Assembly: GCA_030144725.1 (NCBI GenBank)
Contig: JASKMD010000030.1
Location: forward strand, 220,525-284,524
Direction of reading: 5' to 3'
Source: Haematococcus lacustris
Taxonomy: Eukaryota; Chlorophyta; Chlorophyceae; Chlamydomonadales; Haematococcaceae
Length of the DNA: 64,000 nucleotides
The notes below the pieces were generated by a model. It ran no database searches. It saw nothing but the letters and a program-made list of their open reading frames with translations, and was not told the origin of the DNA. The position numbers and the translations under genes are program-made. Below are positions 38,592 to 63,889 of the stretch, in pieces. Within the stretch, counting starts at the first letter, position 1. The number at the start of each line of letters is the position of its first letter.

Positions 38592-41500
38592 CTACCGGCC
38601 CTTGCCTTTCCCGCGGCCCCTACCCCTCTTCCCCCGGCCACGCCCCCGGCCGGCCCCTGACGCCCCTGACACTGCACACTCTGGTGCTGGGTCGATGCAG
38701 TGGTCTCCGGCCTGCTGCTGCATGGAGGTGCAGGGTGCCTGTGGCAGCTGGGCCTCATTGCTGACCGTGGGATTGGCCAACTCCTCCTCCTCCTCTTCAT
38801 CCAGCATGTCCGCCCACTTGAACCCCATGAGCGCCCCTGGCTGCGGGGCTGTGCAGGAAGGCTGTGGGGGAGGGGCCGCGGCAACGGGCTCTGCGCCACC
38901 TGCTCCTCGGCGGCTGGTGGGCCCTGAAGAGGGCCCTTGAGGTTGGCGGTTGCCTTGCTGGGGCTGGACTGAGACAGCGTTGGCTGGGACAGGCACTGGA
39001 GCTCTTGTTTGAGGGGCCGCTGGTGAGAGCTGGAGGGCATTGTGTGCCGCAGATGACTGGCTTGTTTGCTGGGCGCGATGGTTGTGCGGTGGTGCCTGCG
39101 CGAGCTGCGGGATGCTCACGGACTTCGTCACGTCCAGCTTGCCCTGCTCTACCAACCACTTCAGCAGGATGTCCATGGTCAGCCAGCCAAAGCTCAGCAG
39201 CCGCATGCCCGATGGGTTCGCCGCGGTCAGGGCAGCCAGCCGACTGCTGCCTGTGATGGTGGTGGCCCCCCGCAGCCCATCAGGGCAAGCAACCCCGGCG
39301 CCACTCTGAACCTCGCCGTCGCCATCGTCCCCCGAACTTGCTGCAGGGTCACCGGCTGCCTCCACGGAGGATCCCTCCTCCCCCATACCATCCTCCTCCT
39401 CAATCACCGATGGATTAGCTAAGACCGCGAAGCGGCTGGTGCTGGTGGGATTTCCCCGGCCCGGCCTACATTGCGCGCCGCCACCGCGGCCACCTCGAGT
39501 TGCGGGAGCTGTGAAACCCGCGCACGGGGCCTGCGACTGCCAGCCATAGATGCCTCGGTCTTGCAGCCCAGCACCATTGCCGCAGGGGGCGGGTGCAGCG
39601 CCCTGGTTCGCCTCTCGAGCTTGCTGCAGTGCTGCCTCGCGCTCCGCAGCCACGGCGGCCGGGTGGTACTGGGGGTCATATGCCGCCGTGTACCAGGCTG
39701 ACGCCCGCACCACCAGCGCACGGTCCACGGGCTGCTTCCCGGCCAGAGCTGCGGCCACCCTGGCTGCGTTGCGGCGCTGGCGGTAGGAGCCCAGCCCGCT
39801 GGCCTCCACCCCGGCCGTCGAGCCTGCCTCCTGCTCAGCCCCGGCCTCGCGAACCAGATCGTCGAGGGTCAGGCCGCCGGCTGCACCCACTCCGAGGGTT
39901 ACGGCCTCCTTGGCTGCCTCGTCCAGGATGTCCAGGGAGGGGGAGGTGGAGGCGCTGGGGTTCACCAGGGAGGTCCAGGTGCTGGCCTGGCTGCTGCCCG
40001 GTTCAGGCAGGGAGCTGAAGGTGCGCAGGAAGCGGCGCCGCACCACACCCACCTCCAGCAGCAGCTGCGACCGCAGCGGACAGACCAAGTGCTGGGCACG
40101 GTGCGGGTGGGGGGTTGAGGCCGGCATGGCGACAGCTCAGGAATGGAAGGAATGTGAGATGGAAATGTGAAATGGAATGTCAGGATGTCAGGATGTCAGG
40201 AATGTGAAGTGGCACAGAGGTAAGGTGCTGAGAGGCAGAGGGGGCAGTGATGAGGCATGGCAAGCGAGCTCATACTCCCCAATGCAAACCCATCCATTCT
40301 GCACCCCCACCACCCTCACCTGCTGTCTTAGGTCCATCTTCTTCTGTTTGTGGATATTTACCGTGTCAATGACCCAGCCAGTCAGCAACTCCTCCTCCAC
40401 CATGCAGCCGTACTTGTTCAGCAGCCTGCAGCCAGAGGGTTGGGGCAGACAAGCCCCATATGTGACAGCTCAATCACAAACCCTAGGCACATGGAGTGGG
40501 ACACTGCCTATAGTCACAGCACAGCACAAGGAGTGGGACACTGCCACAGCAGCAAGAGCGGGACGCTGCCACTGCCGCCATTCCAACAGCTTTATGCCTA
40601 GACGTCTACATCAGGGCAGCTGTAGAGCACCCCAGCAGGCCTTGAGCCTGCTCCCTGCCTCCACTGCTGCCCCGCTCCCCTTACTTGACTAGCTCCACGT
40701 TGTATTCCTTGCACAGCGCCACCGCCCACTGCAGCTCCTGAGCCCAGCCCGGCTCGTTCGCCAGCACCAGCCGTGGATCAGGCCGGGTGACGGCTGCGCT
40801 GGCTGCGGCCCTCAGCTGCTCCTCTGTCAGGCGGTGGGGGTGGGCGCGTGGGCGGGCTACGTTGCGGCTTACACTGCTTGCCCAGTCATAGATCTTGCCA
40901 AGGATGGTATGCGACTGGATGCTGAGCTTGTTGGCATTCTCCATGTAGTGTGGGTATGCCTGCATGGGAAGGGATGGGGCCACCAACACGAGGCAGGGCT
41001 TCGTTGCACGCTCATATCACATCAGTTGCTTTAAACACAGATGTTAGTGCTGCTGCTGTAGAACATGAAAGAAAGGAAAGGAAAACTAACTAAGGGGGAG
41101 GGCACAATGGAGCAGGACCCAGCATCCAAACATTACACTTATCAAAAGGTGACATGGTCATAGGGTCAGGTGAGGTCAAGGGCTGATCGGCACCCTCCTG
41201 CCCTCACCTTAGGCCGCTCATGCTCTTCGAGGGGGATGGGCACACACGTCTTTGCATAGTCCACGGCCATGCTGTGCTTGTCGCTAAGGCGCAGGCAGCC
41301 CTGAGCTCGAGCCCCCAGGGGGTGCTGGTCAGCCAGTGCCACCCAGGCGTTGGCAATCATGCCCAGGCTGTCATGCACCTGTGACCATGGGCATCGCAGC
41401 CAGAATGCCGCTCACACACCCCGCAAGCAGCAGGCTCATAGAGGGTAGAGAGTAATACTGTGCGGTGATTGCTGATGGTAGGGCCAGGGCCAGGGCCAGG

Positions 41501-61800: not shown

Positions 61801-63889
61801 GCTTCCCTCATGAATGGCAGAGTGGCTGGGGAGGGGGTGCTCCAGAAGTGGGTGGTTGGGGCTGCCCCGTGACTGCAGCTGGCTGGATGTGCTGGCTGTG
61901 CTGGAGTAGCTGGCTGCAGTGCTGCCTGACTTACTCACTGATGCTGCACTCGTGAATTGCAGAGTGGCTGGGGTGGGGGGTGCTCCAAAAGTAAAAAGCC
62001 AGAAGTGGGTGGGTGCGGCTGCCTTGTGAGGGAGACCAGGAGTGAGGGGTCACAGGGTCCGGCCACAGGGGCAGGGAGGGACCCCCACCCCCACAATCAC
62101 CCCTGTGCCATCCCCCCACAAGCCCCACCCACGTTCAGTTTGGATGATGAACAGTATTTGAGCTGGCTTCTTCAGCTTCTCATAGGCCTGGCGCCGGGCC
62201 TGGTCCAGGGCAGTCAGGTGGTCCATCCCATACGTCACGTACCTGAGCAGGGCAGGGTGTGTGTGGGGTGTGTGGCAAAGGTGTGCAACAGCATTCACAA
62301 TGCTTGCATGTTCACCCACTGCTCGCAGCGAGTTCCTCAACTATTCATGATGCAGGTTCCTTTCTGATGGGATGCAAGTTCAACGTGTGAGTGTGAGTGT
62401 GAGTGCGAGTGTGAGTGTGAGTGTGAGTGTGAGTGTGAGTGTGAGTGTGAGTGTGAGTGTGAGTGTGAGTGTGTATGTCTATGTGTGTATGTGTGTGCTC
62501 TGCACCAGCGAGCGACTCCTCACACCCCAACCTGCCTGCTTGGGACCCAGGATCTCAGTGTAGTGTGAACTACGAACCCACACCCCATGACTGTGACTCT
62601 GGCCGCCTTCCCTCCTCTCACCCATTTTGCCGCTCACACCGCTCAGCCCCTCTCGCCCCACTCAACCCCTTCCCCCTGCCCCCACACTCTTTGCTTTGCC
62701 CTGGCCTGGCCTGGTCTGGCCACAAACTGCCGCACCAGCTCTCAAGCACCGTGTCTAACCCAGGCCCCGGCCTGGTCGGCCCACGCTTGCCCTGCCTGGT
62801 CTGGTCTGGCCACATACGCTGCTAGACCAGCTCTTAAGCACAATGCTTAGCCCCGGCCCGGCCTGGCCTGTACATGTGTTGCTGCCTGCATGCCTTAGGG
62901 CCACTTACACTACCGGGGGGTAGTCAGGCAGGGCCATGGTGATGCCCTGGGACTGGAACGCCTTGCTCAGCTCCTGCAGGTCAAGGTAGGCAAGGGCAGC
63001 CACCACACACTGCTGCACAACTGCCAACACGCTTGAGTGAGCCTGTGAACCATCATGTGAATCATCATCCAGCCATTTAAGCCGTTGCAGCGTCAGTCGG
63101 GTTGCGATGCATTGAACCAAACTATGCCAGGCATGCCATGCCAGGCGTGCCGGACCTGAACCACTGAACAAAACCACCACTGACAAAAGGTCAGTCGGGA
63201 TGAATGGAACCAGGTTAGACATGCCAGGCTTGCCAAACCTTGCCTTAACTCTCACATGTCCGTGTTTGTTGACCAGCGACTGTTAAATCTGAGGCACCAT
63301 CCTACCCAACAAGCTAGAGATAGCCAGCCGCAGCAGCACCAGCAGCAGTAGTAATAGTAGCAGTAGCAGCAGCAGCTGCAGCAGCAGCAGCGGCAGGAAC
63401 GCCAGCCCTTTTCTAGTCAGGTCGCCATTTGCTCCGGATCAGTGGGGGATGAAGTTGGGATGCATCAAACCAAATCAAAGGTAAGACCTGAATCACACGA
63501 GAACATGGTGTCTGTGGCCAGCGACTGTTGTGCCCTCAGGCACCATCCTACCCAACAAGCTAGAGATAGCCATCAGTGCAAAGTACATGCAGCCATATGG
63601 CAGTCAGCGGCAGTAGCAGCGGCAGCGGCAGCGGCAGCAGCAGCAGCAGCAGCAGCAGCAGCAGCAGCAGCAGCAGCAGCAGCAGCAGCAGCAGCAGCAG
63701 CAGCAGCAGCAGCAGCAGCAGCAGCAGCAGCAGCAGCAGCAGCAGCAGCAGCAGCAGCAGGAGACCGCCAGCCTGGTCTGCACTTGCCTCCAGGAACATT
63801 TGCATCTTGGTGGGGCCTGAGGGCAGCTGGACCTCACACAGGTTGCGGCGCACGTAGCTCACCACCGCAAACGACTCCAAGGTCACTGC
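55875..63889 (-). CDS. AGO: Argonaute, Mid and PIWI domains (5' end beyond window)
   Basis: Small-RNA-guided slicer. Fourteen exons from 5' to 3': 63788-63889, 62909-62973, 62133-62242, 61623-61678, 60945-61004, 60370-60470, 59905-60066, 59431-59568, 59041-59110, 58296-58361, 57682-57829, 57206-57326, 56483-56663, 55875-55886. They total 1392 bases, and every junction is in phase, giving 463 residues plus stop. Motifs: [39 protein letters not shown] (first catalytic D, codon 60018-60020); [20 protein letters not shown] (second D); [44 protein letters not shown] (catalytic H); C-terminus KNAMFFI from a 12-bp last exon. Three catalytic positions are readable and intact, so cleavage competence is likely. 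Two introns (59111-59430, 62974-63787) start with GC. The N and PAZ domains lie upstream of 64000. Confidence 0.96.
57063..57180. repeat. (CCCTGT)n array in AGO intron
   Basis: About 19 hexamer units with a few CACTGT variants, in the intron 56664-57205, ending 25 bp from the donor. Confidence 0.95.
58837..58931. repeat. 11-bp tandem repeat in AGO intron
   Basis: CTTTGGCTATC repeated about nine times within the intron 58362-59040. Confidence 0.95.
62386..62474. repeat. (GTGTGA)n array in AGO intron
   Basis: About 15 hexamer units in the intron 62243-62908. Confidence 0.95.
63634..63760. repeat. (CAG)n trinucleotide array in AGO intron
   Basis: About 42 pure CAG units (CTG on the transcribed sense) inside the GC-AG intron 62974-63787, 27 bp from its 5' splice site. 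The open frames over it are not coding. Confidence 0.95.

Follow-up and report, generated by a model that had tools for sequence, protein, structure and literature searches.

An RNA-silencing gene cluster of Argonaute, RNA-dependent RNA polymerase and Dicer-like genes in Haematococcus

The window analyzed here is 64,000 nucleotides long and comes from Chr30 of strain SAG 192.80 of Haematococcus pluvialis (H. lacustris). On its minus strand it carries an Argonaute gene, AGO-a, of which only the C-terminal half is included, followed head to tail by a gene for an RNA-dependent RNA polymerase, RDR-a (Table 1). This orientation, already proposed in the first-pass annotation, agrees with the Pfam matches in the window, Piwi at ~57–60 kb and RdRP at 41–47.5 kb. 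A Dicer-like gene, DCL, faces RDR-a from 2.5 kb left of the window; over the three copies of the cluster, the distance between DCL and RDR is ~20–41 kb, in sequence containing repeats. Haematococcus thus contains an RNA-silencing cluster of AGO, RDR and Dicer-like genes, larger than the chlamydomonadalean AGO–RDR pair first described, and the AGO–RDR linkage also occurs in Chlamydomonas eustigma. Two further copies, A and B, both with complete Argonaute genes and ~20 kb between RDR and DCL, are located near the two ends of one scaffold, C166, which is probably Chr29. AGO and RDR are adjacent in all three copies, with the same strand and order, and in copy B one gapless 68-kb stretch contains the whole of AGO together with RDR and with DCL as far as its DUF283-like part. 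The compared parts of the cluster genes have open frames and are under strong purifying selection in the three copies. The N gaps that flank the contig of the window, and the missing 5′ exons of AGO there, are what an assembly misjoin might leave behind. Such an error had been named as a possible source of the neighborhood and is extremely improbable: the window copy sits on a single gapless 81-kb contig, the AGO–RDR junction is also gapless in copies A and B, where the gene order is repeated, and the linkage has independent backing from C. eustigma.

Table 1. Features of the window (positions numbered from its first nucleotide)
Feature	Position	Strand	Basis
AGO-a C-terminal half, exons 16–29 of 29, MID and PIWI	55875..63913	-	homology-guided model against P0121, 14 exons
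Exon of AGO-a containing GADVSHP, which supplies the first Asp of the catalytic DEDH tetrad	59905..60066	-	model and motif
Exon of AGO-a containing PAYYAHH, which supplies the tetrad His	57206..57326	-	model and motif
1.17-kb insertion between AGO and RDR, window copy only	53769..54935		comparison of copies
Opposite-strand ORF, overlaps tentative RDR 5′ exons; no sign of a gene	52329..53147	+	substitution counts
RDR-a	38592..53314	-	comparative model; homology to P0001/P0002; RdRP Pfam matches
RDR exon with catalytic DLDGD, motif start 42615	42574..42643	-	homology model and motif
Interrupted segment, ~79–98% identical, that recurs at either end of scaffold C166 as copies A and B	29551..64000		alignment

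The 14 exons previously counted for AGO-a are all present, but they constitute only its C-terminal half. The model ends with a TAA stop at 55877–55875, which was checked, and the upper edge of its first exon is uncertain by ~15 bases. The 5′ exons fall beyond the window, in the N gap C176:288951–289450, and are present in copies A and B, whose 1022-residue products are identical to the H. lacustris protein P0121 at 1019/1022 and 1018/1022 positions. The window model matches copy A at 465/467 residues, with its first four residues left off. The Pfam accessions listed for P0121 are PF16486, PF08699, PF02170, PF16488 and PF02171, which include ArgoN, ArgoL1, PAZ and ArgoL2. By its predicted domains, N, L1, PAZ, L2, MID and PIWI in copies A and B, AGO-a classifies as a eukaryotic Argonaute. 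The catalytic residues of both genes were said to be kept, and this holds: RDR-a has DLDGD, and the AGO-a tetrad DEDH is found in the motifs GADVSHP, KEMI, FRDGIS and YYAHH, the E and H having been read against an alignment with argonaute-3 and the tetrad positions within PIWI being those we presume to be standard. With DEDH intact, AGO-a is predicted to be slicer-competent. Its dN/dS between copies is 0.029–0.057.

RDR-a is firm from its TAG stop at 38592 to ~51.8 kb and tentative from there to 53.3 kb, and its start codon is not fixed. The gene is longer than the 21 exons first assigned to it; in the comparative model it has 31 or 33 exons, depending on the intron penalty, and 1,936–1,937 codons including the stop. 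A PF05183 match of 5e-46 in one frame and the DxDGD motif place the putative product among cellular RNA-dependent RNA polymerases. For the 609 core codons retained after the linker and tail were dropped, dN/dS between copies is 0.017–0.027; the whole-model values of 0.29–0.31 were discarded, inflated as they were by uncertain linker exons. The minus-strand ORF at 50897–51817, with 34 synonymous and 23 non-synonymous differences between copies, is assigned to RDR-a. The tentative 5′ exons at 52.5–53.3 kb show no coding signal in substitutions on either strand. Here the minus-strand ORF 52491–53240 has 3 synonymous and 7 non-synonymous differences, and the plus-strand ORF 52329–53144 has 3 and 10. 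The case for the minus strand consists of model codon usage and weak similarity to residues 12–64 of the C. eustigma protein P0002. The short opposite-strand ORF that the first-pass annotation placed between the genes, with no position given, is perhaps this plus-strand ORF, in which case it overlaps tentative RDR exons. A third gene in the conserved block at 50.7–53.7 kb was considered and rejected; the lower part of the block is RDR and the upper part only tentatively so. A first gene-finder model, which fused AGO and RDR and in which a plus-strand gene scored lower (506 vs 925), was replaced by the final models, for which splicing was guided by protein homology and the comparative model was made stricter. 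Early identities of 76% and 56% to H. lacustris proteins were also abandoned, as they reflected faulty AGO exons and, in the case of RDR, a paralogue.

Because the RDR 5′ exons are tentative, the AGO–RDR spacing is ~2.6 kb with them and ~4.1 kb without them; the ~4 kb given originally corresponds to the latter value. The interval carries insertions in two of the three copies, and close to the edges of the window insertion stands TCATCT, a 6-bp direct repeat that may be a chance occurrence. The constant strand and order would be in keeping with a single bicistronic transcript of AGO and RDR, a reading that we consider very unlikely. The spacing is at least 1.4 kb by alignment, the minimum being that of copy B when the tentative 5′ exons of RDR are counted, whereas the published inter-ORF regions are <100 nt at many loci and >100 bp at many others. 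TGTAA is a poly(A) signal of Chlamydomonas, and its first occurrence is 357–653 nt past the AGO stop in the three copies, distances that carry no chance control; none occurs in the 992 nt after the RDR stop.

The first-pass annotation proposed looking for a Dicer gene next to AGO, beyond 64 kb; a Dicer-like gene does lie outside the window, on the RDR side. A whole-genome search for RNase III, in which all eight candidates were scored, gave three matches, one beside each copy of the cluster, so that the core RNAi trio constitutes one locus. The best PDB match of DCL is Dicer homolog 1 (1.3e-21), and PF00636 matches three stretches. The predicted protein has two RNase III domains with catalytic boxes, ELVGDAVLD and EFLGDAVLD...LMADLVEAVLG. 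Helicase_C is matched in copy A (1.5e-5), and Dicer_dimer (DUF283-like) in copy B (7e-5), copy A (0.0036) and Chr30 (0.11), the three Dicer_dimer matches being below the family cut-off. Neither a DEAD helicase nor PAZ is matched in the frames scanned, whose ends coincide with N gaps or come close to them. A genome-wide Dicer_dimer (DUF283) search returned no match, but its controls were silent as well, and therefore it shows no absence. Of four DCL stretches tested, three have only synonymous differences between copies; the other open frames of the same stretches, mostly non-synonymous, were excluded from these counts. In three minus-strand frames covering 10 kb between RDR and DCL of copy B, the only Pfam match is a mucin-like repeat.

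The segment shared with C166 extends past the window edge to 68228. The assembly has three copies of AGO-a and RDR-a and two of each of AGO-b, AGO-c and RDR-b. AGO-b lies on Chr8 and RDR-b on Chr17, so linkage is not required. AGO-c lies on Chr5, and single-exon RdRP matches are observed on Chr8. We lean slightly toward regarding the three copies as a single locus, represented by alleles or by haplotypes that were not merged and that Hi-C scaffolding put at the ends of two scaffolds, rather than as an amplified gene cluster. These copy numbers are consistent with such an origin, as are the resumption of similarity between Chr30 and the right end of C166 after the gap (82–96%), the lack of telomere repeats of the kinds counted at all three scaffold ends read, namely 3 kb at each end of C166 and the initial 3 kb of C176, and the assembly itself, described as haplotypic, 3D-DNA-scaffolded and half the size of an earlier 600-Mb draft (PMC10400597). 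A synonymous divergence between copies of 0.06–0.17, however, is high for alleles, the two copies on C166 occupy both ends of one scaffold, and the 20 kb searched near copy B contains nothing that matches a 2-kb probe taken ~33 kb inside copy A. A subtelomeric location was set aside: the copies lie near scaffold ends, yet the three ends read are those without telomere repeats. In other H. lacustris records, AGO-a is on a 1.1-Mb contig, with no RDR among the matches listed there; a 38-kb contig carries a fragment of RDR-a.

The C. eustigma RDR, CEUSTIGMA_g11819, and AGO, g11821, are each listed on a 152,534-bp contig, two locus numbers apart with one number between, and the AGO is 44% identical to the early AGO model. 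In the trees, these proteins are sisters of the Haematococcus AGO (100/100) and RDR (100/100). Given that shared contig, the AGO–RDR linkage probably predates the split of the two algae. The AGO tree comprises 33 proteins chosen from 120 listed plus one gene model, leaving out C. reinhardtii AGO1 and Haematococcus AGO-c; the RDR tree comprises 35 chosen from 120 plus three gene models, and a second RDR tree 32 chosen listed proteins plus one gene model. AGO and RDR were each duplicated once in Haematococcus. AGO-a belongs to a deep clade, separate from CHLRE_04g214250, which we take to be C. reinhardtii AGO2, and its group includes green algal rows with support of 99/96 among the selected rows. 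The chlamydomonadalean RDRs form a group of their own, and the wider RDR-a group includes Myrmecia, at moderate support (90/92) and with long branches in the selected rows. The Myrmecia RDR and the single AGO found there sit on different contigs. Joint transfer, raised earlier as an origin of the pair, is not borne out: among the sampled rows both proteins group with green algal relatives, the deeper RDR supports being moderate and the branches long, and neither is nested among distantly related sequences of a possible donor.

In eukaryotic genomes, RNAi genes are usually dispersed. C. reinhardtii AGO1 is presumably Cre02.g141050 and hence would adjoin DCL1. Land-plant RDR2 and RDR6, which we assume to be RDR-alpha, share the RdRP core and DLDGD with RDR-a and differ in ~31% identity and in their separation from the chlamydomonadalean group. 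In prokaryotic Argonaute operons and defense islands, partners of one nucleic-acid defense are kept together; the Haematococcus genes, in contrast, are separate and intron-rich, with no evidence of co-transcription or mobility. In C. reinhardtii, which has AGO1–3 and DCL1–3, the DCLs are described as lacking PAZ, a domain for which the Haematococcus DCL frames scanned gave no match, and DCL1 is Cre02.g141000 (PMC11905391). The species differs in the AGO clade noted above and in lacking a conserved RDR (PMC7676726). This lack agrees with the first-pass annotation; an RDR in green algae as such, however, is not new, since an RdRP is reported in Volvox (PMC5093975) and "RDR-like homologs" in Chlorophyta (PMC7994812), and the databases list RDR proteins from H. 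lacustris, C. eustigma and Myrmecia. The tandem AGO cluster of Phytophthora is likewise a clustering of RNAi genes in a eukaryote, but it is composed of AGO paralogues, with no RDR or Dicer gene described in it in the available part of that report (PMC6284064). Searches of open-licence papers turned up no published AGO–RDR–Dicer cluster, and RNAi terms have no match in an algal gene-neighborhood paper (PMC7826186).

We consider the locus to be a conserved linkage group encoding the core of one siRNA pathway, with a probability of about 0.68. The plant-type RDR would convert single-stranded transcripts into dsRNA, its templates most likely being aberrant RNA or RNA from transposons; the Dicer-like enzyme, which probably belongs to the algal type without PAZ, would cut this dsRNA into small RNAs; and the predicted slicer-competent Argonaute of the deep algal clade would use them to silence their source. 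The three products may thus work in one pathway with transposons as its target, and linkage may have been kept since joint inheritance or expression was favored. Against this reading stand the unlinked paralogues AGO-b and RDR-b, the contigs of AGO-a and of the RDR-a fragment in other H. lacustris records, the distance and repeats between RDR and DCL, the weak DUF283-like match, and the different contigs of RDR and AGO in Myrmecia. Alternatively, the genes could be neighbors by inheritance or chance only, linked without functional meaning where little rearrangement occurs. The unlinked AGO-b and RDR-b, the insertions between AGO and RDR in two copies, and Myrmecia, where the proteins found are not linked, would fit this account. 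It is rather unlikely when set against the close locus numbers in C. eustigma despite only 44% AGO identity, the presence of a third pathway gene, Dicer-like, in the same locus, and the improbability, as a rough estimate that was not computed, that three core RNAi genes should by chance share ~70 kb in a genome of 308 Mb.

A broader version of the linkage-group reading is possible, although we hold it to be doubtful: a complete AGO–RDR–Dicer toolkit locus would date back to the ancestor of much of the Chlamydomonadales and would have stayed together as a heritable module of transposon defense, a eukaryotic counterpart of a defense island, and C. reinhardtii would keep only a remnant of it, DCL1 beside AGO1 if the two do adjoin, after RDR loss. 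How C. reinhardtii makes phased siRNAs with no conserved RDRs is a question raised as open in PMC7676726, and the Haematococcus locus provides a chlamydomonadalean setting in which these missing RDRs may be studied as a loss. One locus with three core enzymes, partly conserved between two algae, would allow a direct test of whether linkage matters for RNAi, in a red-pigment alga that is cultivated as a producer of astaxanthin.

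The Argonaute gene of the cluster, AGO-a, is represented by minus-strand Piwi exons at ~57–60 kb in six-frame searches of the window, and a protein-guided splice model places 14 exons on the minus strand from 63913 to 55878, followed by a TAA stop codon (55877–55875). They correspond to exons 16–29 of 29; the complete gene is present in two further copies of the Argonaute (AGO)–RNA-dependent RNA polymerase (RDR) pair, copies A and B, near opposite ends of scaffold C166. The 14 exons counted in the first-pass annotation are thus what the window holds, but not the whole gene. The 5′ exons were looked for in C176 (Chr30), the scaffold on which the window spans 220525–284524, and none were found; the contig stops at a 500-N gap (C176:288951–289450). 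AGO-a retains an intact D-E-D-H catalytic tetrad, its dN/dS between copies is 0.029–0.057, and the copy A protein is identical to the H. lacustris database protein P0121 at 1019 of 1022 residues. A third, divergent Haematococcus AGO, AGO-c, lies on Chr5 at C312:4316500–4322500; its PAYYAH-like site reads VYHAD, which suggests Asp in place of His at the final position of the tetrad.

The RDR gene, RDR-a, is marked by minus-strand RdRP Pfam matches between 41 and 47.5 kb and a DLDGD motif at 42615; among PDB entries, it matches RNA-dependent RNA polymerase 2 best (2e-60). Comparison of the three copies yields a gene model of 31 or 33 exons, depending on its intron penalty, that runs from a start near 53.3 kb to a TAG end at 38592. 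The core is firm: across 609 codons in the three copies, 34–66 synonymous and 2–6 nonsynonymous changes are observed (dN/dS 0.017–0.027). Farther 5′, a minus-strand ORF at 50897–51817 carries 34 synonymous and 23 nonsynonymous changes between copies, and substitutions support minus-strand coding of RDR-a up to ~51.8 kb. From 52.5 to 53.3 kb, the synonymous:nonsynonymous ratio is 3:7 on the minus strand and 3:10 on the plus strand, and the between-copy comparison gives no substitution support for coding on either. The modelled 5′ region has a weak local match to the N terminus of the C. eustigma RDR P0002 (E 9e-5, one-sequence blastp), and the modelled N terminus returned nothing significant as a phmmer query. 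A block at 52.2–53.7 kb, 98–99% identical in part across the three copies and devoid of coding signal on either strand, may hold RDR 5′ exons, be conserved noncoding DNA, or reflect a recent gene conversion. Elsewhere, three single-exon RdRP matches on Chr8 (C476:965127, 3133970, and 14985076) may be fragments or belong to a third RDR family.

The 5′ end of RDR-a is tentative, and so is the AGO–RDR spacing. Measured from the AGO stop, the firm part of RDR begins after ~4.1 kb, in agreement with the earlier estimate of ~4 kb between the genes, and the modelled RDR start lies at ~2.6 kb. By alignment, the corresponding distances are ~2.9 and ~1.4 kb in copy B and ~5 and ~3.5 kb in copy A. The window spacer contains a 1.17-kb insertion (53769–54935) that is absent from copies A and B, and the copy A spacer carries its own 1.4-kb insertion.

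Beside each AGO–RDR copy lies one of the three matches of a whole-genome PF00636 search (see table), which works exon by exon; its counts are lower bounds, and the genome may contain additional RNase III genes. The Dicer-like gene (DCL) at these sites has two RNase III domains and, among PDB entries, matches Dicer homolog 1 best (1.3e-21). A DUF283-like match falls under the family cutoff in all copies (E 7e-5 in copy B, 0.0036 in copy A, and 0.11 in Chr30), Helicase_C is found in copy A, and no PAZ or DEAD domain was found in the DCL frames scanned. In Chr30, DCL is oriented toward RDR, and its end, near C176:218047, is 2.5 kb to the left of the window. Alignments place DCL ~41 kb from the RDR stop in Chr30 and ~20 kb in both C166 copies. 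N counts show that one gapless stretch in copy B (17630001–17698466) carries the whole AGO gene, RDR, and DCL as far as its DUF283-like match. Between copies, coding-frame changes are all synonymous in three of four DCL stretches tested; the last has 1–3 synonymous and 1–3 nonsynonymous changes per pair.

Features of the AGO–RDR–DCL cluster located outside the window
Feature	Coordinates	Strand	Source
AGO-a complete, copy A	C166:226767-211391	minus	protein-guided splice model
AGO-a complete, copy B	C166:17631656-17650933	plus	protein-guided splice model
RNase III match	C166:172464	+	PF00636 genome search
RNase III match	C166:17687452	-	PF00636 genome search
RNase III match	C176:217607	+	PF00636 genome search

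Several repeats accompany these genes. Between DCL and RDR in Chr30 is an uninterrupted 1708-codon copia-type LTR retrotransposon ORF (window 4805–9928, minus strand) with gag, integrase, and reverse transcriptase. In an inverted repeat at ~13.8–21.9 kb, segments 13.8–14.9 and 19.3–21.9 kb match one part of the copy B flank in opposite orientations. A tandem repeat with a 4-base step (~33.0–33.5 kb) has a counterpart next to copy A that is 100% identical over as many as 297 bases. Long Pro-Asp/Leu-Thr type repeats occur in the DCL region (C176 ~209.5–210.1 kb; C166 ~17.695 Mb), ~2–4 kb from contig breaks in Chr30 and copy B.

The segment common to the three copies extends, with interruptions, from ~29.5 to 68.2 kb in window coordinates, and its counterparts at C166:182–219 kb and C166:17.639–17.676 Mb are roughly 79–98% identical. 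Similarity returns after the gap, from ~307.4 kb of C176 against C166:17.601–17.610 Mb (82–96%). The three may be alleles of an unmerged assembly or duplicates. The other AGO and RDR genes, AGO-b, AGO-c, and RDR-b, are each found twice too, which leans toward alleles, but the divergence between copies is high (0.06–0.17 at synonymous sites) and C166 has copies at both of its ends.

An RDR search (129 matches among 8000 scored candidates) was headed by the Chr17 paralogue RDR-b (H. lacustris P0001) and C. eustigma P0002 (CEUSTIGMA_g11819), followed at ~31% by land-plant proteins, many named RDR6. A profile search (213 matches) added an H. lacustris RDR-a fragment, P0241 (96% to copy B), and an RDR of Myrmecia bisecta. 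The AGO search (122 matches among 7999 scored candidates) recovered P0121 (AGO-a), P0122 (AGO-b, Chr8), and the C. eustigma protein P0123 (CEUSTIGMA_g11821). We take g11819 and g11821, with one locus number between them, to be linked because the contig given for each is 152,534 bases long. In the AGO tree, AGO-a (two rows), AGO-b, g11821, one metagenome protein, and one MMETSP protein form a clade (100/100) separate from the AGOs of C. reinhardtii (CHLRE_04g214250), Volvox, Ostreobium, and Myrmecia and from two other C. eustigma AGOs, all within a wider group whose rows are green algal or unnamed (99/96). RDR-a, RDR-b, and g11819 likewise form a clade (100/100), which in a second tree joins Myrmecia and unnamed rows (90/92) on long branches. 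It follows that, once the Haematococcus line had split from C. eustigma, each of the two genes underwent a single duplication there, with the linkage kept in one pair. Among the rows of these trees, no donor outside the green algae was found for the joint transfer raised earlier.

In RNA-amplified siRNA silencing, RDR, Dicer-like, and AGO enzymes each carry out one of three core steps. By its residues, AGO-a is predicted to be slicer-competent and RDR-a catalytic, and the two would serve one pathway with DCL, directed at transposons and other aberrant RNA. All three are members of known enzyme families, and RDR has already been reported in green algae (PMC5093975, PMC7994812). Among open-licence papers, neither the physical AGO–RDR–Dicer trio nor AGO–RDR linkage common to two algae was found in print. 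Transposable elements are put at 50.8% of the Haematococcus genome (PMC10400597), and Cr-AGO1 is reported to have a likely role in transposable-element defence (PMC6668577). Because AGO and RDR are jointly conserved and the genome's only RNase III matches found lie beside them, we infer that they most likely serve one pathway against transposons and other aberrant RNA. In C. reinhardtii, the Cr-AGO1 gene presumably adjoins DCL1; if it does, the linkage may have an earlier origin and a broader distribution.
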